A stretch of DNA of 38,092 nt from Treponema sp. (GTDB taxonomy: Bacteria > Spirochaetota > Spirochaetia > Treponematales > Treponemataceae): contig JAFZWX010000183.1 of assembly GCA_017617145.1 (NCBI GenBank), forward strand, positions 1 through 38,092, written 5' to 3'. Made by a program: the position numbers and the translations under genes. Positions 13,901 to 29,927 of the stretch are shown here, piece after piece (within the stretch, counting starts at the first letter, position 1; each line of letters begins with the position of its first letter). A model generated the notes under the pieces. It worked only from the letters and a program-made list of their open reading frames with translations. It was not told where the DNA came from and did not search any database.

Positions 13901-14571
13901 GGAGCAAAAGCCTGAGGTTCCTTAAGGAGATTTATAAGATCGTGGTCAAAAGGCCCGAAGGTTGGCTGTGATTTAGCGTATGCCTTAATGCTTGTCCAGG
14001 TTTTACCGTATAGTTTGTTTTTTGCAAGCGGCTTGTCATCAAAAAGCAATTTGAACGGTTTGAAGGCTGCGTTTTCATTTGCAAGGTGAAGAAGTATGAG
14101 CTCTTCGAGTGTTTGCTCTCGGTTTGAACGCTGTTCCCCGGTTGCAAGGTCGGTGCCTTTTCGCAAGAGGTATTCGCTGGCAGTACATTTTTCCTTATAA
14201 ACTTCAACAGGCGGGAACTCCTGCAAAAAATCAAGCAGCAGAGTGTCAATTTCTTTTTTTGTATATTGCTTTTCAAGCTCTGCCATCAGGTTGTGCATAA
14301 AGGTTGGCACCTTGTTTCGCCTGTAAAGCATGCACACATGATGGAGAATTTCATCAATAAGCCCCATTGCATTGAGCTGTCCTGCACTTACGCGTTTGTT
14401 TTCATCACCGGTAACAGTATCAATATAATTATTAAAGAGGACCTGAAAATTGCGCACGTTCCTCATATTGGCAAAAACAACATTTCCGCTCGAAGCAAAA
14501 AGCCCCTCTTCAAAAGAGCAAAGATCGCGCACTTTTCTGGAAATATGGAACTCGTTATATGAAAGTTTCAT
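10957..14571 (-). CDS. Large GH13 alpha-amylase-family protein with C-terminal extension
   Basis: The protein is 1204 residues. The N-terminal ~300 residues are helical and not recognised. A GH13 barrel follows (about 310-750) with GFTGLWLIGLWE, DMVPNHTG, the nucleophile IRFDAAMV (Asp527), the acid/base LLLAEAFW (Glu592) and NNPDEE (Asp653) in place of the usual HD. A C-terminal region of about 350 residues includes a lysine/threonine-rich linker (about 905-945) and ends in RRGSKKK. There is no signal peptide, so it is probably cytosolic and acts on glycogen or imported maltodextrin. Its start codon overlaps the malQ stop as ATGA, so translation is likely coupled. The subfamily is not assigned. 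Confidence 0.85.
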   Translation of the reverse strand: MKLSYNEFHISRKVRDLCSFEEGLFASSGNVVFANMRNVRNFQVLFNNYIDTVTGDENKRVSAGQLNAMGLIDEILHHVCMLYRRNKVPTFMHNLMAELEKQYTKKEIDTLLLDFLQEFPPVEVYKEKCTASEYLLRKGTDLATGEQRSNREQTLEELILLHLANENAAFKPFKLLFDDKPLAKNKLYGKTWTSIKAYAKSQPTFGPFDHDLINLLKEPQAFAPDSLKGQLEYIQKYWAEFLGEWLKRILAGMDTISEEEKAAWHGFGGGDLPDMTAYSFENLMNEYERYSPDSDWMPKVILIAKTVLVWLDQLTKQYGYPITRLDQIPDPELDKLRDEGFTGLWLIGLWERSKASRRIKQICGNPEAAASAYSLYDYNIAQNIGGWDALANLRTRLWQRGIRLASDMVPNHTGMDGDWVINRPDLFIQRRDCPFPHYTFNGENLSQDGRVSLYLEDHYYTKNDCSVVFKRVDNQTGDTRYIYHGNDGTGLPWNDTAQIDFLNPQAREAVMQEILHVAQNFPIIRFDAAMVLAKKSIRRLWYPEPGHGGDIATRSETGLSYEEFNKAIPNEFWREVVDRVARECPDTLLLAEAFWMMEGYFVRTLGMHRVYNSAFMNMLKKEENQKYRQTVKNTITFDPQVLKRYVNFMNNPDEETAIAQFGDGDKYFGVCTLMITMPGLPMFGHGQIEGFTEKYGMEYTKAYKDEKPSQYLVDRHWREIFPLMKKRYLFSGVENFLFYDLWQDGVVNENVFAYSNGAGNERTFVVYNNKYDRAYGWIKQSDPYAVKTGNGDETKLISRSISEGLNLNGEDDKYCIFRENRSGLWYIRKSKEICEKGLFVMLNGFEYQVYMDVHQVTDEADGRYRILCEHLNGAGCEDIESAWQEIIYKDLYAAMENYAKAVLPPVIQAFTNKEEPKVSSSEINKILKAAEKQALAFETECEKIEKASEGSFKEKTTEKPTKAKTKAKTNAKTDSKKVQTCTLTKDVQQLLKLLVQVHNAKAGKKPADLQKAIVNAKEVLQFVKLMEGADPNLEVVLLCRALSGKYATSGLADFLNFARKFNQFITTYTDLEKNLRTDLTRMFILARVSDVSKIATPSGKRATAARITELLVISKHRRLLSGANTFDNILWFNKEITDYSINLIELLMMMNAKSADLENILKLFKDLRAAKLKAAYKCELLAKAYAPKQTKSLKGTQRRGSKKK

Positions 14572-16640
14572 GAATGAATCTCCTTTATTTTATCTATCAG
14601 TTCTTTATTATCTATTAAATCTTCTACTGCGCATGGCATTCGGTAGGTCCAGTTAAACTTTGTTACTGTTCCCGGGATATTTATGCGTTCGGCGCTGGCT
14701 TTTGTTAACCAGAAGGATTTGTCCATATATAAGAAATCCTGCAGTGGTGGAATGAACCATTGGCTTGCGCTGGTTGCAGACACGCTTAGGATTGTTTGGG
14801 CCAGTTCCGGTGTGAAGTCTCGTTGTGCAAGAGCCTTGGCGCCCTGAGAGATTTCATTTTCTGGTTTATCGAACAACGGCCCTTCTGCATCTTCTTTGAG
14901 TCCGAATGCGGCAGGATTTGCTTTTATAAAGGCTTCTACACTTTCTTTTTCGGTTTCCCACCATTCGCGGATTGTGCTTGAATCGTGAACGGAAGTTGTG
15001 GTAACGCTGAGCGGTTCGTATTTTTTGAATGGAACATAAGGCTGTCCATCTTCTGCCCATTCGCGGCACCAGCGTACAACACGCAAACCAAGGATGTTGT
15101 GCTTTTTCATTGTCTCCGGTACACACGAAATGCCAACTCCTAAATCTTCACCGCACGGAATCATTTTAAGACCGCTGGTTATGGCATTAAAAATTTCATC
15201 GGCCTGTTTTTTCCAGAGATTCGTGTTTTTCTTTCCAAGCTTGGTGAACAGTTCTTCAAGCGCAGTTTTTTCTGCCTCGTTGAGCGACTTCCACGAAGTA
15301 GACTGGTTGTATGTCCAAAGCGGAATAAACTTATTTTTGCCCACTTCCAGAAGAGTTCTGTTTGACCAGTATTCACTTAATTTCTGGCGGATTTTTTCCT
15401 GGGCAGGCTCGTCTACAAAAGCAGTAAGATTCAAGTTTGCAAGCTGGGCGTTTCCTTTAATTGAATTATCAAAAAGCCAGAGTTCCTCGTTTCCAATTTG
15501 AGTACAGCAGGTTTCAAGAATCTTGTGGGCAACTTCGCGGTTCCAGGTAATGTCTTCTACAGCGCTTGTAGGAATATGAGGATGGCTTAACCATCGGATT
15601 CTGTCATCGTCAAAACCAAGCTCGTAAAGGTCATCAATTTTAAAAGAAGCATAAGGTTCTGTGTGGCCTGTAAGAGCGTTGCAGTCTGTGCTAGGAATTG
15701 CCCAGATGCGGAAAAAGCCCAGAATGTGGTCTAGTCGGTAGGCATCATAATAGCGGGATGCAGTTTTGAGACGCTGCTTCCACCAGCTGTAATCCTGTGC
15801 TTTAAGATTTTTCCAGTTGTAAGTTGGGAAGCCCCAATTTTGTCCGGCAGGGTTTTCTCCGTCGCTTGGAGATCCTGCACGCAGGTCATGATTAAAAAAT
15901 TCCGGATAAGCCCAGGCATCGCAGGAATCTTCGTTCATAAGGATTGGCATGTCGCCTTTAAGGAGCAGCCCCATCTTGTGTACTTCTGCCACGGCAGATT
16001 CAAACTGTGAGGCAGCAAGCATCTGGCACCAGGCGTAAAAAAGATGTTCCTTTTTGAAGGCCTTTGTGTTCCACCTTTTTGTAATCTGCTCGGCGGTCAT
16101 TGTTTTATCATCTTCATGCCAGCTTTTCCAGCTTGCCTGCATGTAGTTCCATTTAAGGTTTTTGTAAACGGCGTAGGTTTTTATCCAGCTGTTTGATTTG
16201 ATCCAGCTTTCCAGTGCTTCATCAGGAGTGCCTGTTTTTCCAACCTGGCTTGCATCATAAAGCTTCATCAAAAGGGAAGTTTTTGTGTTCAAAATTGAAT
16301 CATAGTCGTAGCGCAAGGTGTAGGCATTTGCAGAAATAAAATCATCGTAGGCTTTTTTGAATTTTGCGTCTGATTTGTATAAATCGTCAAACCCCGGAAC
16401 ATCCTTAATGCGGATATAAATAGGATGCAGCGCAAAAGCCGAAAGTCCCGAGTAGGGTGAACTTTGGGTTCCTGTATCATTTACAGGAAGCAGCTGAATT
16501 ATACCAAGTCCCGCCTCTTTGCAAAAACGGGCAAAAGGAACAAGGTCCGCAAATTCTCCAATCACAGGATTTTCTTTTGTATATAAGGCGCCAAGCGGCA
16601 CAGCCACGCCAGTAAGTTTCTTTTTCTGCATAGTTTTCAT
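14568..16640 (-). CDS. malQ: 4-alpha-glucanotransferase (GH77)
   Basis: 690 residues from the ATG at 16640; the second ATG at 16631 is equally plausible, because an extended -10 box ends immediately before 16640. GH77 features are clear: a GSPYSG-like SSPYSGLSAFALHP near the start, the nucleophile region DAYRLDHILGFFRIWAIP, the acid region IPCGEDLGVG, LGLRVVRW and SVHDSSTIREWW. The enzyme transfers glucan chains between maltodextrins in the cytosol. It is the first gene of a two-gene operon with the GH13 protein. The MalQ/GH13 pair suggests internal glycogen or starch-oligosaccharide turnover. Confidence 0.93.
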   Translation of the reverse strand: MKTMQKKKLTGVAVPLGALYTKENPVIGEFADLVPFARFCKEAGLGIIQLLPVNDTGTQSSPYSGLSAFALHPIYIRIKDVPGFDDLYKSDAKFKKAYDDFISANAYTLRYDYDSILNTKTSLLMKLYDASQVGKTGTPDEALESWIKSNSWIKTYAVYKNLKWNYMQASWKSWHEDDKTMTAEQITKRWNTKAFKKEHLFYAWCQMLAASQFESAVAEVHKMGLLLKGDMPILMNEDSCDAWAYPEFFNHDLRAGSPSDGENPAGQNWGFPTYNWKNLKAQDYSWWKQRLKTASRYYDAYRLDHILGFFRIWAIPSTDCNALTGHTEPYASFKIDDLYELGFDDDRIRWLSHPHIPTSAVEDITWNREVAHKILETCCTQIGNEELWLFDNSIKGNAQLANLNLTAFVDEPAQEKIRQKLSEYWSNRTLLEVGKNKFIPLWTYNQSTSWKSLNEAEKTALEELFTKLGKKNTNLWKKQADEIFNAITSGLKMIPCGEDLGVGISCVPETMKKHNILGLRVVRWCREWAEDGQPYVPFKKYEPLSVTTTSVHDSSTIREWWETEKESVEAFIKANPAAFGLKEDAEGPLFDKPENEISQGAKALAQRDFTPELAQTILSVSATSASQWFIPPLQDFLYMDKSFWLTKASAERINIPGTVTKFNWTYRMPCAVEDLIDNKELIDKIKEIHS

Positions 16641-16649
16641 ATTATACCA
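16641..16649 (-). promoter_or_regulatory. Extended -10 promoter of malQ
   Basis: On the minus strand TGGTATAAT abuts the first ATG (16640). A start site 7-9 nt downstream would fall just before the second ATG (16631), giving a nearly leaderless message starting at MQKKKLTG. No convincing -35 is seen. Confidence 0.5.
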
Positions 16650-16703
16650 CGAAATTTGCAAAAAAAATGAAGAATTTTTCACTTTTTTTGAGGATTTTTT
16701 TCC

Positions 16704-16734
16704 TTGACGGTTTTTTGCGGGGGGGGGGTATAAT
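16704..16734 (+). promoter_or_regulatory. Promoter of GH5 copy 1 with poly-G tract in the spacer
   Basis: TTGACG (16704-16709) and TATAAT (16729-16734) are separated by 19 bp, of which 10 are an unbroken run of G (16719-16728). Eight G would give the optimal 17-bp spacer. The sister promoter at 19674 has the same layout with the tract interrupted by an A. Confidence 0.8.
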
Positions 16735-16766
16735 AGAAGAAACATTCTAATTTCTGGAGCTTTCTT

Positions 16767-18869
16767 ATGAAAAAACTATTGAGCCTTCTGATCGTTGTCT
16801 GCTGTTTATTGTCTGTTATTTCCTGTGGCACATCTCCTGCTTCTGAGCAAAATGAAAAGCCGTATAAAATTGATTTAAGTCATATTGAGACATCAAATGA
16901 TGATAATTCGATGACCTTTGATAAGGCTTCGGGGATTGTTACAGTAAATCGCGATTATATAAATCAATCTTGTTTAGGTTTATGGGTTGATGAAGATATT
17001 ACAAATTATAATATCCTGAGAATAAAATATAAGGCTCTTGGCGATTACGGATTCCATATTAACACAGAGTATGAGAATGATCCTACCTCAGACTGGTGGG
17101 GCGACAATACTTACTGTCCGTCCTATCTTACAGAAATGGTGATCCCGATAAAAACTGGTGTTACAAAGCTGAAGTTCATTACTATATCTTCTGTAAGTTA
17201 TATCTGGACTTATAAATTCAGAATTGATGAAATTACTCTGGAGAAGGTCAGCAATCCTCAGAAAACTGATGTTGCAGTAAGTAATGAGCCTCCGCTTATT
17301 GATACTGCTTCAGACGGAACCTTTAATGATTCAATCAGCGCATGGGATTTTGTAAACGGTCTTGGAGCCGGCTTTCATTATGGGGCTTTTCATTCTGTTA
17401 GTGCCTGGCAGGATTTTGGTCTTGACAGTTATTCCTGGAGCGGAGATATAAAACCTAAAAAAGAAATAATTCAGACCATCAAAAACAAAGGCTTTAAAAC
17501 CCTAAGGCTTCAGGTAGCTTCTTACTGTCATCTTCTTGATGATGATTACACGATTGATCCGCGCTTTATGAAGACTGTAAAGGATGTTATCGACTGGGCT
17601 ATTGAAGAGGATATGTATGTCATTCTATGTGGACCGCTTGCAGAAATGTTTCAGGATCAGAAGTATCTGGAAAAGGCATCAGAGAGCGTTCATTTTGCAG
17701 GTTTTTCTGTAAGTGAAAATGAGAAAGAAGAATCCTTGAAGTTTTTAAAGGCAATCTGGCTACAGTATGCAAAGACCTTTAACAATTCCTATGATGAACA
17801 TCTGATTTTCGAAACTTTAAACGAGCCTATAGACTGTTTTCATGAGCATGCCTGGAGGCCAAGACTTGATTGTTCTGTGTGTATAAAAGATTTTGAAATC
17901 CTAAAGGAATATAATCAGCTGATTGTAGATACGATCCGTTCAACCGGAGGAAACAATGAAAAACGCTTTATAATGGTAGAAGGTCTTGCCGCAGGAAATC
18001 TGAATTGTATAAGTATTGCAAATGAAAACTCGTTCACCCTTCCAAATGACACGGCTGAAGATAAACTTATTCCTACTTTCCATTACTATCCTATGGAATG
18101 CGGAAAGCCCTTTTCAAAAAAGGTGTATTCGCGAAGTGTGAAAATTGCTACTCAAGAAATGTTTGCATCTTTTGACAGTCTGTATTTCTCTAAGCATATT
18201 CCGGTTTATATGTCCGAAGGTTTTCATGATCGCTCAATTCCAATTATGGAACGCATAAGTTGTCTTAAGGATTTTATGGCAGAAGCAAAGAAGACTGGAC
18301 GTAGCTGTAATGTAACTATGATTAACGATGGTGATTATTTGTGTCAGTCGAGTGCTTTTGGAACTTTATCATACCAGGATTTAAAATGGTACGACAATGA
18401 GTATGTTGATACGCTGATTTATGCCTGCGAAGGAAAAGAATATCCATTAAGTGATGACTTTGTTAAAAAAAATACGCTGATAATTGAGAGTATAGTAGGA
18501 AAAAATCTTTTACCCGAACCTGTTGAAAAAAATGGATCTGATGATGCTACCGTAATTAAAACTGATCTTTTAGTGCGCTCAACTCCTTCAGAATATAAGT
18601 TTGAATTCCAGATTGAAACGACTGGCCCTGATGCAGTATTGCAGGTTAGTTATAATGATTTAAAATTAGTCTGGCGTGAGCTTGTTCAGCAAGAGAACGT
18701 AACCATACAAGGCGGAACTCTTAAAGACGGCTGGTGCATTGCAATTTCAGAAAGCGGCACAGTTACACTTAGCATTGACGAAAAGCTTGCCCTGGACCTT
18801 GAGTGTGCAGAGGCTCTTTATATAAATGGTTGTAACATCATAATCAAGTCGATGAAGGTTGTGGAGTAA
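16767..18869 (+). CDS. GH5 family glycoside hydrolase lipoprotein (copy 1)
   Basis: The protein is 700 residues. A lipoprotein signal ends at SVISC (Cys20). A beta-rich N-terminal domain (about 30-165) resembles a carbohydrate-binding module. The GH5 barrel (about 185-530) has TLRLQ, acid/base FETLNEP (Glu353), HYYPM and nucleophile PVYMSE (Glu484). A second beta-rich domain follows (about 570-700). The GH5 substrate-site HH after strand 3 is replaced by LCGPLAE, and an HEH...CSVC motif follows the acid/base. It probably cleaves beta-glucan at the cell surface; substrate unknown. The gene has a GGAGC ribosome site and a poly-G promoter. Its stop codon abuts the convergent toxin gene's stop. 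Confidence 0.86.
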   Translation: MKKLLSLLIVVCCLLSVISCGTSPASEQNEKPYKIDLSHIETSNDDNSMTFDKASGIVTVNRDYINQSCLGLWVDEDITNYNILRIKYKALGDYGFHINTEYENDPTSDWWGDNTYCPSYLTEMVIPIKTGVTKLKFITISSVSYIWTYKFRIDEITLEKVSNPQKTDVAVSNEPPLIDTASDGTFNDSISAWDFVNGLGAGFHYGAFHSVSAWQDFGLDSYSWSGDIKPKKEIIQTIKNKGFKTLRLQVASYCHLLDDDYTIDPRFMKTVKDVIDWAIEEDMYVILCGPLAEMFQDQKYLEKASESVHFAGFSVSENEKEESLKFLKAIWLQYAKTFNNSYDEHLIFETLNEPIDCFHEHAWRPRLDCSVCIKDFEILKEYNQLIVDTIRSTGGNNEKRFIMVEGLAAGNLNCISIANENSFTLPNDTAEDKLIPTFHYYPMECGKPFSKKVYSRSVKIATQEMFASFDSLYFSKHIPVYMSEGFHDRSIPIMERISCLKDFMAEAKKTGRSCNVTMINDGDYLCQSSAFGTLSYQDLKWYDNEYVDTLIYACEGKEYPLSDDFVKKNTLIIESIVGKNLLPEPVEKNGSDDATVIKTDLLVRSTPSEYKFEFQIETTGPDAVLQVSYNDLKLVWRELVQQENVTIQGGTLKDGWCIAISESGTVTLSIDEKLALDLECAEALYINGCNIIIKSMKVVE

Positions 18870-19585: not shown

Positions 19586-19666
19586 ATGGAAACCAAAACC
19601 GAACCACTTTCTGCCCGCGTGGTAGAAAAAATCATCAGTGAATTTTTGACTTCTCAAGCCGGCTGA
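19586..19666 (+). other. Possible 26-codon small ORF
   Basis: An open frame from ATG to TGA encodes a peptide with an amphipathic stretch (SARVVEKIISEFLTSQ). No ribosome site is visible. It lies in the 172-nt gap between the antitoxin gene and GH5 copy 2, and could be a fragment of a lost gene. Confidence 0.2.
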
Positions 19667-19673
19667 TTTTTCC

Positions 19674-19703
19674 TTGACGCCTTTTTGCGGGGAGGGGTAC
19701 AAT
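19674..19703 (+). promoter_or_regulatory. Promoter of GH5 copy 2 with interrupted G tract
   Basis: TTGACG (19674-19679), an 18-bp spacer ending in GGGGAGGGG, and TACAAT (19698-19703). The sequence from TTTTCCTTGACG onward is clearly related to the copy 1 promoter. Confidence 0.75.
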
Positions 19704-19737: not shown

Positions 19738-21771
19738 ATGAAAAAACTTTTGTGCCTTTTGATCCTTGCCTGCTGTGCGATAGCTGCCTTTGCGCAGAAT
19801 GTAAAACCTTACACTGTTGATTTGAACCGCATGGATACATCCAACGATGACAAAACAGTAACCTTTGACAGAAAGACGGGGACTGTTACAATTAAAAAGA
19901 ATACTGCAAATATCTATCTTTGGCCTGGTGATATAGACATTTCTAACTATAACATTGCAAGAGTTAAGTATAAAGCTTCTGGAGATTGCGGATTCATTTT
20001 TGTTTTAGATTATGATGATGAAACGCTATCCTGGACAGACAAATCTACCTATTGTCCCTCTTACCTTGATGAAATGGTTGTTACAATACACCCTGGTCAG
20101 AAAAAAGTTAATGGCATATTCTTTCAGGGAACATGGAACGTTGATAATTACCAGTTTATTATAGAGTCAGTCACTTTTGAAAAAGTCGCAAACCCTGTTA
20201 CGACCGATGTTTTTGCCTGTGATGAACCGCCTGTAATTGATACAGCGACCAGCGGCAAAATTGATGAAAAACTCAGCGCTTGGGATTTTGTTTCTACAAT
20301 GGGAGTAGGCTGGCAGTATCCTGTATTTGGCCAAAGCGGATACGGAAATCTGGATTTTGGAATGGATTTTTATTATTGCTGGAACCGCTATGGAAAGCCA
20401 ACAAAAAAGATAATTGAGCTAATAAAACAAAAGGGATTTAAAACTATTCGTCTTCAGACTACACCAGGAGACCACATATTAGACAGTGCTTATACGATTG
20501 ACCCGCGCTATATAGCTGCCATAAAAGAAGTAGTCGACTGGGCATTAGAAGAAAATTTGAATGTAATTATCTGCGGTCCTTTTGCAGATTACATGAAAAA
20601 TGAAACTTACAGAAAAGTTGTAAAAGAAAACGTTCATTATGCAGCTTATCTTGTAAATGAAGAAAATAAAACCGAATCAAAGGAATTCATAAAAGCTGTG
20701 TGGACGCAGTATGCACGAGCTTTTAATAATTCTTATGATGAACATTTGATTTTTGAAACCTTGAATGAGCCTGTACATGTTTTTCATGAACACGAAGTGC
20801 TTGCAAGAACAGACTGCGAGGTATGTAAAAAGGATTATGCAATTTTAAATGAATATAATCAGTTGATTGTTGATACAATCCGTTCAACCGGCGGTAATAA
20901 TGCAAAACGATTTATTATGGTTGAAGGCCTTGGATATGCAAGGTGGCAGTGTATAACAAATAATCTTTTTAAACTGCCAAAGGATAAAGCTAAAAACAAA
21001 TTAATTCCTGCTGTTCATCATTATCCTTTGGGTGATGGACCGGATGCGGTTTTGTTGTATTCAAAAGGTATAAAAAATCAAATTACAGAAGAATTTGCAG
21101 CGCTGGATAAGTATTATTTTAAAAAGCATATTCCAGTTTATTTTACTGAAATAGGTTTTGATCCAGATAATATCCCGGTTTTGGAGCGACTAAACTGCAT
21201 GAAAGATTTGATGGCAGAAATGACTAAGAAGGGTCGCTCTTGTGCTGCTAATCATGATGATAATTTTAGTTATATAAACCTTCTGGAAGCCAAATGGAAT
21301 GAAGATGAGGCGCCATATTTGAATTCTCTAATTTATGCTTCGCAGGGAAAAGAGTATCCTTTGAGTGAAGATTTTATTAAACAGAATGAAATTAAAATAG
21401 AAAGCATTGTGGGTAAAAATCTTTTGAGCGAAGCCTTTGATCCAAAAAATTGGGAAAACTCTTATGAAATAAAACCTGCAATACTTGTTCGTTCTGTTTC
21501 TGAAAAATATAAACTTGAATTCCAGATAGAAAAAACTGGTTCCAAACCAATTCTACAGGTTTGTTTTATTGACAAGAACGAGAATTTCACCGATATTTCC
21601 GCAAGAAGCGATGTAAAAGTAACTGGTGCCGTAAAAGGCTGGTGTTTTGAAGTTCAATCTGACACTATAGTTATAACCGTAAGTGAAAAACTTGCCATAG
21701 ATTTTGAATCCAACGGTTTTTATATAAACGGCCAGGACATCATCATAAAATCCGTAAAGGTAATAGAGTAA
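19738..21771 (+). CDS. GH5 family glycoside hydrolase, secreted (copy 2)
   Basis: The protein is 677 residues with a signal peptide ending near AAFA (residue 20). The layout is as in copy 1: N-terminal beta-rich domain, GH5 barrel, C-terminal beta-rich domain. Acid/base is FETLNEP (Glu344), HHYPL replaces HYYPM, and the nucleophile is PVYFTE (Glu471). The LCGP segment of copy 1 reads ICGPFAD, again without the usual HH, and HEH is followed by CEVC. Unlike copy 1 it has no lipobox before the mature N-terminus, so it is probably released to the periplasm or outside. GGAGC precedes the ATG. A small AGAGT/ACTCT hairpin (21765-21777) covers the stop codon. Confidence 0.86.
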   Translation: MKKLLCLLILACCAIAAFAQNVKPYTVDLNRMDTSNDDKTVTFDRKTGTVTIKKNTANIYLWPGDIDISNYNIARVKYKASGDCGFIFVLDYDDETLSWTDKSTYCPSYLDEMVVTIHPGQKKVNGIFFQGTWNVDNYQFIIESVTFEKVANPVTTDVFACDEPPVIDTATSGKIDEKLSAWDFVSTMGVGWQYPVFGQSGYGNLDFGMDFYYCWNRYGKPTKKIIELIKQKGFKTIRLQTTPGDHILDSAYTIDPRYIAAIKEVVDWALEENLNVIICGPFADYMKNETYRKVVKENVHYAAYLVNEENKTESKEFIKAVWTQYARAFNNSYDEHLIFETLNEPVHVFHEHEVLARTDCEVCKKDYAILNEYNQLIVDTIRSTGGNNAKRFIMVEGLGYARWQCITNNLFKLPKDKAKNKLIPAVHHYPLGDGPDAVLLYSKGIKNQITEEFAALDKYYFKKHIPVYFTEIGFDPDNIPVLERLNCMKDLMAEMTKKGRSCAANHDDNFSYINLLEAKWNEDEAPYLNSLIYASQGKEYPLSEDFIKQNEIKIESIVGKNLLSEAFDPKNWENSYEIKPAILVRSVSEKYKLEFQIEKTGSKPILQVCFIDKNENFTDISARSDVKVTGAVKGWCFEVQSDTIVITVSEKLAIDFESNGFYINGQDIIIKSVKVIE

Positions 21772-23725: not shown

Positions 23726-23730
23726 TATGG

Positions 23731-23811
23731 ATTGTCGGGTCAAGCCCGACAATGACAAATGTGTCATTCCTGACAATGACAAATGTGTCATTCCCGCGCT
23801 TGACGCGGGAA
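23731..23811. repeat. Palindromic repeat cluster downstream of the two-component operon
   Basis: ATTGTCGGG (23731-23739) pairs with CCCGACAAT around the loop TCAAG. TTCCCGCG (23791-23798) pairs with CGCGGGAA around the loop CTTGA, the complement of the first loop. Between them, a 20-bp unit containing ATGACA-AATG-TGTCAT occurs twice (23751-23770 and 23775-23794). Related units lie at 26149-26238. Confidence 0.9.
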
Positions 23812-23815
23812 TCTA

Positions 23816-24418
23816 TTACTTAAACCTTTCAATCAACTCATCGCGGTTCTTGACGCCGATTTTGGAGTAGAGCCGGCTTGTGTAATTTTCAACTGTACGC
23901 GGCGAAATAAAAAGCTCGTCGCAAATCTGTTTGTTTGATTTTTCCTGGAGAAGGGCTTCAAAAATAACACGCTCCTGTTTTGACAAAACCGAAACAATTG
24001 AATCAATTTTGTTCTGCGCGTCGCTCATGTATTGTTCCATGTAAGTTCCACCATTCTGGACAACTTCAAGACAATGTGCAAGCTCTTCTTCTTTTGCCGC
24101 TTTTGAAATGTAGCCTTTTGCGCCCGAATCCTTTGCCTGTAAAACAAAGCCTGTTGTGTCATACATGGAATACATTACGCATTTAATCTGCGGCCATTTT
24201 TGGGTAATCTGCTTTACAAGTGAAAATCCGGTTTCGTTTATAAGCTGAACATCAACAATAATAATTTCGGGAAAGGCAGTTTCTGAAAGTCCTTCAAGGC
24301 ATTCAGGCGAAGAAGCAAAATCTTTTTCAACGCGCCACTGGGTATGATTTTCGAGCCAGGCTTTAAGGCCGTTTCGAACCATGTTGTGGTCATCTACAAT
24401 ATAAACAACATTTTTCAT
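23816..24418 (-). CDS. NarL/LuxR-type response regulator
   Basis: 200 residues. The receiver domain (1-120) has the acidic pair Asp9/Asp10 and phospho-acceptor Asp56 in IIIVDVQL. A GAKGYISK segment holds the conserved Lys. The C-terminal LuxR-type helix-turn-helix (about 138-200) includes LSKQERVIFEALLQEKSNKQICDEL and SPRTVENYTSRLYSKIG. Its start overlaps the kinase stop by 4 bp, so the pair is co-translated. The palindrome shared by the kinase promoter and two GH5 promoters is a candidate binding site, which would make this the local regulator of the GH5 genes. Confidence 0.93.
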   Translation of the reverse strand: MKNVVYIVDDHNMVRNGLKAWLENHTQWRVEKDFASSPECLEGLSETAFPEIIIVDVQLINETGFSLVKQITQKWPQIKCVMYSMYDTTGFVLQAKDSGAKGYISKAAKEEELAHCLEVVQNGGTYMEQYMSDAQNKIDSIVSVLSKQERVIFEALLQEKSNKQICDELFISPRTVENYTSRLYSKIGVKNRDELIERFK

Positions 24419-26088
24419 ACGCCGCCCTCCAGAGGTAATTCAATTTTAATTTCCATACCGTCGTTTTGCGAGGTAAAAAACTCTATACTGCCACCAATCA
24501 GTTCCATCCTGTCTTTCATTGAACGTAAGCCCAGATGCTCTTTGCTTTTGAGTCGTCGTTCAAGCTCGTTTTGATTGCAGCCAATGCCGTCGTCGGTAAC
24601 ATAAATCAAAAGAGAGTCGCCTTCTTTTTCTCCATCCTTTTTCATAAAAATAGAAGCCTGCGTTGCATAAGAATGTTTTTCTATATTTGTAAGCGCTTCC
24701 TGAATTACGCGGAAAAGATTCTGAGTAATTTCTTTTTCGAGCACCGGATATTCAAAGCCGTCATCAACTTTAAAAACACAAGGAATATGAGTTCGCGACG
24801 TAAACTGCTGAACAAGTGAATTGATAATAGAAATAAGTTCAACCTTGGAAGATTCTCCATCACTATGACTTGCAAGCTCGGCTGGAGTTAGATTGTAGCA
24901 GATATTGCGCAGCTTAATGATACAGTCTGTTGCAAGATCGGCAATTTTTGTCTGCCTCTGACGCGAAGCTTCATCAATAACAAGATTTTCAGTTTCGAGC
25001 CTGAGCACACGGATATCCTGAACAACAGAATCGTGAATATCGCGGCTGATTTTTGCTCGCTCTTTTTCCTGAATATCAAAAATCATTTTGTTGCGTTCTT
25101 TAAGAAGCTTTTCGGTAAGCTTGTTCTGTCTGATTTTTTTGATAAGCAGAATTATTAAAAAGACTGCTGTAAAAATAAGACAAACAAAAGCTAAAGCCTG
25201 TAATGCAAGCTGCCACGGTTTTTGCTGACGGAGCATTGGAAGTAATCCGTTTTCGTAACGCTTATCAATAATCAGAGCTTTCCTTTTTGCAGCCCAATAG
25301 CTTTCATATTTTTTAAGCCTGCCGTTTACACAGTTGTACAGCCACCACGAACTTGTATCTATGTCGCAAATTAAAAGAGAGTAGTCTGTAGTTTGAAAAA
25401 CTCCTTCATCGAGAGATTTTATAAGTAAGGATTTGTCCTTGTTTGTCTGATGTTCATAATTTTCAAAGGCATTAAACGAAACTGTGTCTGCAGCGCGCGG
25501 TACCCTAAAAACAAAATTTCCTTTTGAATCTTCTATTTGATAAAGTCTGCTTCCCAAAACATTTCCATTACTATAACTGTCATGCAAAAACCACACGCCT
25601 GTTTTGTTTACAAGAAAATGTCCGATTCCGCTTTCCATGACCTGATATTCTAAATTTACAAAAGGCTGATTTGTATTGTAAGTCTGCGTTGCAATGTAAA
25701 GTCCCTGAGTGTTTTTTTCTGAATTGTCATTTGCCCAGGCCGAAGTAAAATAAAACTTTTTTGAATAAGGACTGAACACAAGGCTTTTTATGGAATTAGA
25801 TGATGTATAAAGCATATCCCACAATGGCCTGATTTTAGAATCTCTGTTAGTTCCTGCGTGAAAAACCCAGACAACAGAATGTTCACCGTCTGCCTGATTT
25901 GTTGCCATTAAAAAAAGAGAATTATCTTCGTTGCCCGCACATGCCACAACATCAGTTTTTAAAAATTCATTTTTCTGAATTGTCCAGCTTTCTGCATATT
26001 CAGCCGCTTCTTCTTCCGTAAGCGAAAAAAGTGCAGTTGATGATATTAGTAAAAGTGCAGCAATAAAAAGGATTTTTCTACGCATCAT
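24415..26088 (-). CDS. Membrane sensor histidine kinase (HisKA_3 type)
   Basis: 557 residues from the ATG at 26088. A signal-type segment (about 2-22), an extracytoplasmic sensor region of about 260 residues rich in strands, and a membrane segment (ALQALAFVCLIFTAVFLIIL) precede the kinase core. The phospho-acceptor helix is ISRDIHDSVVQDIRVL with His352. The ATPase domain shows VIQEALTNIEKHS and VTDDGIGC. It pairs with the overlapping NarL-type regulator. The ligand is unknown; a beta-glucan breakdown product is a reasonable guess from the adjacent GH5 genes. Translation appears leaderless, since TATTAT ends 6 nt before the ATG. Confidence 0.9.
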   Translation of the reverse strand: MMRRKILFIAALLLISSTALFSLTEEEAAEYAESWTIQKNEFLKTDVVACAGNEDNSLFLMATNQADGEHSVVWVFHAGTNRDSKIRPLWDMLYTSSNSIKSLVFSPYSKKFYFTSAWANDNSEKNTQGLYIATQTYNTNQPFVNLEYQVMESGIGHFLVNKTGVWFLHDSYSNGNVLGSRLYQIEDSKGNFVFRVPRAADTVSFNAFENYEHQTNKDKSLLIKSLDEGVFQTTDYSLLICDIDTSSWWLYNCVNGRLKKYESYWAAKRKALIIDKRYENGLLPMLRQQKPWQLALQALAFVCLIFTAVFLIILLIKKIRQNKLTEKLLKERNKMIFDIQEKERAKISRDIHDSVVQDIRVLRLETENLVIDEASRQRQTKIADLATDCIIKLRNICYNLTPAELASHSDGESSKVELISIINSLVQQFTSRTHIPCVFKVDDGFEYPVLEKEITQNLFRVIQEALTNIEKHSYATQASIFMKKDGEKEGDSLLIYVTDDGIGCNQNELERRLKSKEHLGLRSMKDRMELIGGSIEFFTSQNDGMEIKIELPLEGGV

Positions 26089-26094
26089 ACAACT

Positions 26095-26136
26095 ATAATA
26101 CTTCAAAATACCCGAATGCGATAGAGAGTTAAACTC
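26095..26136 (-). promoter_or_regulatory. Two-component operon promoter with GAGTTNAACTC palindrome
   Basis: The palindrome GAGTT-A-AACTC (26126-26136) is centred at 26131. A TATTAT -10 starts at 26100 on the minus strand, 31 bp away. No good -35 is present, which suits an activator-dependent promoter. An overlapping TATAGT could also be the -10. Confidence 0.55.
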
Positions 26137-26148
26137 ACAAATTTCATC

Positions 26149-26238
26149 GTCATTCCCGTACTTGAAATACTTGTGTCATTCCCGTGCTTGACACGGGAAT
26201 CTCTCTTGTAAATAGATTGTCGGGTCAAGCCCGACAAT
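26149..26238. repeat. Palindromic repeat cluster between the kinase and GH5 copy 3
   Basis: A partial unit, GTCATTCCCGTACTTGA (26149-26165), is followed by TTCCCGTG-CTTGA-CACGGGAA (26179-26199) and ATTGTCGGG-TCAAG-CCCGACAAT (26216-26238). The last is identical in the 23-bp core to 23731-23753. Confidence 0.9.
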
Positions 26239-26257
26239 GACATTCTCATAAAATTGT

Positions 26258-26299
26258 GAGTTCAACTCTGTATTTTTTTAGAAAAAGCTGGTGCATAAT
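26258..26299 (+). promoter_or_regulatory. GH5 copy 3 promoter with GAGTTNAACTC palindrome
   Basis: GAGTT-C-AACTC (26258-26268) is centred at 26263, 31 bp before the first base of the -10 CATAAT (26294-26299), which is preceded by TG as in an extended -10. The -35 is poor. Confidence 0.6.
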
Positions 26300-29885: not shown

Positions 29886-29927
29886 GAGTTCAACTCTGTA
29901 TTATTTTAGAAAAAGCTGTTGCATAAT
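29886..29927 (+). promoter_or_regulatory. GH5 copy 4 promoter with GAGTTNAACTC palindrome
   Basis: GAGTT-C-AACTC (29886-29896) is centred at 29891, 31 bp before the first base of CATAAT (29922-29927). The block matches the copy 3 promoter closely. Confidence 0.6.

Follow-up and report, generated by a model that had tools for sequence, protein, structure and literature searches.

The promoter at positions 16704 to 16734 of the window, the whole 38,092-nucleotide stretch of Treponema DNA analysed here, probably represents a phase-variable switch, with a likelihood that we put at roughly three in four. A run of ten G occupies the spacer upstream of the gene for a GH5 glycoside hydrolase, GH5a. 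The first-pass annotation had proposed this reading, and it gains support from the same plan before exported proteins of relatives, from an orthologous promoter whose tract differs between genomes, and from G tracts in both ON and OFF frames in the leaders of related GH5 genes. The promoter and its gene are made up as follows.

16704..16709, + strand: -35 hexamer TTGACG (read directly)
16710..16718, + strand: linker GTTTTTTGC, 9 bp, between -35 and tract (read directly)
16719..16728, + strand: G10 tract, the proposed slippage switch (read directly; run statistics)
16729..16734, + strand: -10 hexamer TATAAT (read directly)
16756..16759, + strand: GGAG, likely ribosome-binding site of GH5a (read directly)
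16767..18869, + strand: GH5a, a GH5 enzyme of 700 aa whose N-terminus resembles a lipoprotein signal (Pfam PF00150, E 1e-33)

Direct reading of the sequence reproduces exactly the ten-G run and 19-bp spacer that had been reported between TTGACG and TATAAT. Both hexamers are near-consensus, and the run lies wholly inside a spacer composed of the 9-bp linker and G10. The accompanying claim that dropping two G would give a 17-bp spacer is likewise correct, the linker and G8 together making 17. The ATG of GH5a is 38 nt past the end of the tract, which therefore falls outside the coding sequence, and translational poly-G phase variation, in which the tract lies within coding sequence, does not apply at this gene. 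The run is the sole G or C run of eight or more within the 38-kb window, the runner-up G run being five and the longest C run four. In a shuffle control, G or C runs of at least eight gave a mean of 0.24 matches and a largest value of 2, with 3 reached in 0 of 100 shuffles, and a second-order Markov estimate puts G or C runs of at least ten at ~0.0003 per window. Assemblies are prone to errors in homopolymers and most of the relatives compared are metagenome bins, yet at such an expectation it is scarcely credible that a G run reached a promoter-like context by accident or had its length miscalled.

We infer slippage in this strain, together with where transcription starts, which way tract length acts on expression and what the ecological role is, along the following lines. 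Slipped-strand mispairing would lengthen or shorten the run of G that separates the -35 from the -10 in a promoter of sigma-70 type. Given a 9-bp linker, G8 yields a spacer of 17 bp, G9 of 18, G10 of 19 and G11 of 20; G8 would be strong and G10 weak or off. The assembled G10 allele would be expressed at a low level that rises on losing one or two G, and cells of one clone would come to differ, on or off, in a single exported GH5 enzyme of beta-glucanase type.

The geometry was compared across the window and ten related genomes, nine of which had a match, giving 26 sites, 25 with a -10 matching at least 4/6. A 9-bp linker and a -10 starting no more than one base from the tract end are found in 19 of these 25 poly-G promoters (pure G8-G11), a figure partly shaped by a search pattern blind to linkers longer than 9 bp. 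In a pattern-independent census of tracts of at least G9, the linker was 9 bp in seven of 11 promoters, and 10, 8, 7 and 6 bp once each. Spacers of the 25 measured 16 bp (two), 17 (seven), 18 (six), 19 (nine) and 20 (one). The ordinary set comprised 137 distinct strings of 253 matches, 135 of them without a G run (from G001, G002, G003, G135 and G136, with three from G006). Among the matches listed, these 135 TTGACA-TATAAT pairs had spacers of 17 bp (43), 18 (27), 19 (7) and 20 (6), about one third of the ordinary matches being expected by chance (88 control matches). Spacers of 15-18 bp against 19-21 bp stand at 99:18 for the ordinary promoters, again among the matches listed, and at 15:10 for the poly-G promoters (Fisher p 0.01). 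Ordinary promoters peak at 17-18 bp whereas poly-G ones reach 19-20, a contrast repeated in individually examined loci, and from this ordinary peak the window's assembled 19-bp allele is predicted to be weak.

The GH5a product and its neighbouring paralogues

GH5a scores above the cut-off for PF00150 (Cellulase/GH5), and its best matches among solved structures are the endo-1,4-beta-glucanase Cel5C, a beta-1,3-1,4-glucanase and endoglucanase A. Besides the cellulase domain it has Glu353 (in NEP) and Glu484, both invariant in an alignment of the window's four GH5 paralogues, which we take to be the GH5 catalytic pair. Of the earlier description of the product as a surface glycoside hydrolase lipoprotein, the GH5 assignment is borne out by PF00150; export as a lipoprotein is a prediction from the N-terminus MKKLLSLLIVVCCLLSVISC, which resembles a lipoprotein signal by inspection only, and the surface location is presumed. 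The three remaining paralogues have ..FA-Q where GH5a has its lipoprotein-like signal. None of the three carries a pure G tract, so only one member of the enzyme set would be switched, and the suggestion of a switch in fibre-degrading ability as such is too strong.

Upstream of two of these paralogues, at 26258-26286 and 29886-29914, stands a nearly identical element, GAGTTCAACTCTGTATT.TTTTAGAAAAA, which contains a GAGTT/AACTC dyad. Similar stretches lie upstream of GH5 relatives free of poly-G (L002, L003, L004, L006, L008, L010 and L031), and the element may be the operator of a regulated, non-switching GH5 class. A dispersed repeat, GATTGTCGGGTCAAGCCCGACAATGACA, occurs at 23727-23796 and 26212-26242 in copies 97% alike and is also found upstream of GH5 in other loci such as L002. 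Two candidate regulators are encoded among the GH5 genes: a response regulator of LuxR type at 23816-24418 and a histidine kinase at 24415-26106.

The presence of this regulator pair at 23816-26106 would fit a reading in which the tract does not switch autonomously but, through its length, adjusts how the promoter responds to a DNA-binding protein. According to excerpts of PMC7864442, a CRP homologue acts alongside poly-G length at T. pallidum tprE, G and J, and tprL expression does not simply track G number. However, reading of 16640-16740 found no operator, and the element of the 26258 and 29886 paralogues has no match in that interval with up to three mismatches allowed. Such regulatory tuning therefore appears quite unlikely at the 16704 promoter, for which autonomous phase variation is preferred.

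A second promoter and the locus in close relatives

A paralogous promoter lies upstream of a second GH5 gene, GH5b. Features that define its context are listed below.

14568..16631, - strand: GH77 4-alpha-glucanotransferase, divergent, the syntenic anchor in relatives (Pfam PF02446)
19586..19666, + strand: remnant of a 292-aa ORF, its last 26 codons and stop; the ORF is whole before the orthologous promoter in L195
19674..19703, + strand: promoter TTGACG-N9-GGGGAGGGG-TACAAT with an 18-bp spacer and a broken tract, paralogous to the 16704 promoter (read directly)
19674-19679, + strand: TTGACG of this promoter
19680-19688, + strand: its linker CCTTTTTGC
19689-19697, + strand: its broken tract GGGGAGGGG
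19698-19703, + strand: its TACAAT
19738..21771, + strand: GH5b, GH5 paralogue downstream of the broken-tract promoter (PF00150, E 1.4e-36)

The first-pass annotation had described this promoter as sharing the layout at 16704 with the tract interrupted and an 18-bp spacer, and direct reading agrees. To judge by the hits obtained, the window's Treponema is probably close to T. bryantii and to rumen metagenome bins. GH77 and its neighbours are common to G144, G136, G135 and G182 at 73-88% DNA identity; the GH77 start codon is at 16631, not at the mechanically called 16745, the relatives beginning alike with MQKTKLTGVAV. In L195 (G144), the 292-aa ORF is followed by a TTGACG-N10-G9-TATAAT promoter and a lipoprotein-like gene, and at the equivalent position in L196 (G136) TTGACG, an 18-bp spacer lacking a pure tract and TATAAT precede a GH5 gene. 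As the remnant of this ORF directly precedes the 19674 promoter in the window, the promoter is orthologous in the three genomes, with a pure G9 tract in one and broken 18-bp spacers in two, and with different genes downstream. Between GH77 and the 292-aa ORF, L195 and L196 also contain palindromic units, CCGACTTAACA...TTAAGTCGG, repeated in several tandem copies. In L197 (G135) and L205 (G182) other genes follow GH77, and the stretch examined holds no tract of G7 or longer.

The 16704 promoter itself seems to be another copy of the type found at 19674. The GH5a orthologues L001, L002 (the same locus as L198) and L003 (the same locus as L200) have other promoters and no tract, which counts against conservation of a switch at GH5a. 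L198 and L200 align with the window only from ~16838 onward, and with the difference in promoters this suggests that GH5a gained its poly-G promoter and a new signal region through recombination. Same-species copies comprised four sequences on four contigs (P0001), and a scan of viral contigs for the sequence following the G10 tract gave 0 matches.

Persistence of 18-bp spacers at the impure 19674 and L196 promoters, and the ability of GH5a orthologues to manage without a tract, would also be compatible with a static promoter element, in which the G-rich spacer serves a constant structural or protein-binding purpose and determines promoter strength, and length changes are only drift between species. 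A static element has no need of a pure run, yet 25 promoters carry pure G8-G11, and we regard this explanation as unlikely.

Poly-G promoters and leaders across relatives

The pattern TTGAC-N-G8 occurs in 138 of 274 genomes of the Treponema family and is absent from the other 136; its reversed form occurs in 26 of the 274. Forward matches number 184 against 19 reversed; reverse-strand counts (394 against 13) include overlapping matches. Of 46 distinct sites, 30 have next to the tract a -10 that matches at 5/6 positions or better, a proportion that falls to 3 of 45 and 2 of 44 when the position is shifted as a control. The other 16 inspected sites lack such a -10, so that pattern counts overstate promoters, and L128, L129, L133, L134 and L137 look like chance coding hits. 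The isolate genome of T. bryantii XBD1002 has four comparable promoters (L078, L084, L109 and L191), which, like the forward excess, speaks against accident or assembly error as the source of these tracts. An ORF lies behind 27 of the 30 promoters, and a crude rule of our own, under which at least one protein that is probably cytoplasmic (L185) receives a signal peptide, classes 13 as predicted lipoproteins, eight as having other signal peptides and six as neither; among 422 background ORFs, taken from GH5 neighbourhoods, the corresponding numbers are 54, 117 and 251.

Some more distant Treponema genomes have many TTGAC-N-G8 matches, and in this distant group (L138, L143 and L145; single-contig genomes such as G037, G043 and G047) tracts reach G13-G16 with linkers of 4-6 bp. 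The string TATAATRGAAGAAA was considered as a Treponema -10 signature and rejected, as most of 30 examples were judged to be coding or other sequence and its excess over the reversed control is therefore no evidence of promoters. Among these examples a -35 together with a long G run is seen in L178, L185 and L191, and TTGAC with a run of four in L181.

The census of tracts of at least G9 in six genomes found 40 distinct tracts. By reading, 11 have TTGAC on one side and a -10 on the other (L097 being at a contig end, and L092 and L109 having -10s of 4/6), another 11 fall within an ORF's leader or signal region, and the remaining 18 are elsewhere or unclear in position. The GH5 family holds seven of the 40, against ~0.02 expected from the DNA that its genes occupy, an expectation that allows 350 bp per gene and 20-24 genes (the six genomes contain at least 23, with at most four scored in each). 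From a search for GH5 relatives 77 loci were kept, and the upstream DNA of 31 was read, that of L011 and L018 being identical. A pure tract of at least G8 is in a switch position in 14 of the 31: two are of the promoter type (L007, G9; L012, G10, its -35 visible in L116) and 12 have a pure G8-G9 tract just past the start codon.

These 12 leader tracts include both in-frame (ON, five) and out-of-frame (OFF, seven) alleles; L029 and L030 are broken again downstream, L019 runs into the end of its contig and L016 contains a gap of N. Four leaders outside the family (L081, L083, L087 and L099) are all out of frame, bringing the total in frame to five of 16, which is about what random frames would give (one third) and far from normal coding sequence. 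L014 (G8, in frame) and L016 (G9, immediate stop) share the same leader, with flanks 81.8% identical. Short or broken leader tracts (L006, L021, L024 and L031) are all in frame, as frozen alleles would be, and the comparison of four of four with five of 12 (Fisher p 0.09) is suggestive only. In G006, three different lipoprotein-like genes (L081, L087 and L099) have a common leader, ACT(A)TACTGGGGGGGGGCGTTT, each with G9 out of frame, as if a switch leader had been copied between genes. A leader has no promoter role, and the coexistence of ON and OFF tracts in one enzyme family is hard to explain without slippage, which argues further against a static spacer and for phase variation.

Significance and comparison with known systems

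With less assurance than for the single promoter, we lean towards a multi-locus poly-G contingency system in gut treponemes, in which members of an expanded family of fibre-digesting GH5 enzymes, along with other exported proteins, would be switched stochastically, some at a promoter of 9-bp linker and Gn spacer and some through a frameshift soon after the start codon. Promoters and leaders would be shuffled among paralogues, and point mutations would freeze tracts. Even a clonal population would then contain cells that differ in their digestive-enzyme sets. If the tracts switch, gut treponemes would provide a commensal counter-example in which digestive enzymes, and not antigens alone, are hedged, and GH5 genes of these genomes that appear frameshifted may represent alleles in the off state and not pseudogenes. 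The wider finding worth following is that a fibre-digesting enzyme family carries G tracts in its promoters or leaders. In PMC8049484 the commensal T. ruminis is reported to have the fewest homopolymer tracts of the treponemes compared, which tells a little against such tracts being of general importance to gut treponemes.

In the open-licence literature searched, poly-G switching of gut-treponeme digestive enzymes at promoter and leader was not found, nor was phase variation of Treponema glycoside hydrolases, and no title among those listed dealt with phase variation in gut treponemes. On slipped-strand phase variation of glycoside hydrolases, the accessible part of PMC3234257 mentions these enzymes only in its methods, and for rumen phase variation with cellulase the open-licence excerpts concerned only E. 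coli in calves.

Precedents for the mechanism itself exist. Translational switches of the Helicobacter, Campylobacter and Neisseria type resemble the leaders of GH5 relatives, where a pure tract close to the start codon occurs in frame in some alleles and out of frame in others; they differ in that the GH5a tract is upstream of transcription and that the leader targets are an exported hydrolase family of rumen treponemes. Excerpts of PMC7864442 describe Neisseria porA as having, like the 16704 promoter, poly-G between -10 and -35 with spacing-dependent transcription, although in an unrelated bacterium and with an antigen rather than a digestive enzyme as product. The same excerpts report that 76% of 17 further T. 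pallidum tracts examined varied in length, that tprE, G and J are transcribed only with eight G or fewer, and that the tprL tract overlaps part of the -10 and leaves the spacer unchanged. These tpr genes, whose poly-G varies in length, resemble the present case in having the tract upstream of genes for exported proteins (by prediction here), but the tprL tract reaches into the -10 whereas that at 16704 is wholly within the spacer. The first-pass annotation had pointed to tpr promoters as its precedent; T. pallidum does provide a poly-G precedent, but the exact match is TP0126 and not tpr (PMC7864442, in part). In this OmpW homologue poly-G lies between -35 and -10 and transcription is best at 17 bp, according to the excerpts, so that the mechanism proposed for the 16704 promoter is not new. 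As far as these excerpts go, the likeness is close: a pure tract of at least eight G wholly between near-consensus hexamers, a 17-bp spacer within reach through G number, and the same genus. The TP0126 product is exported, and that of GH5a is predicted to be, by inspection of its N-terminus. The difference lies in what would be switched, here a GH5 hydrolase of plant polysaccharides in a gut treponeme, in a family whose paralogues in relatives carry tracts in their leaders.
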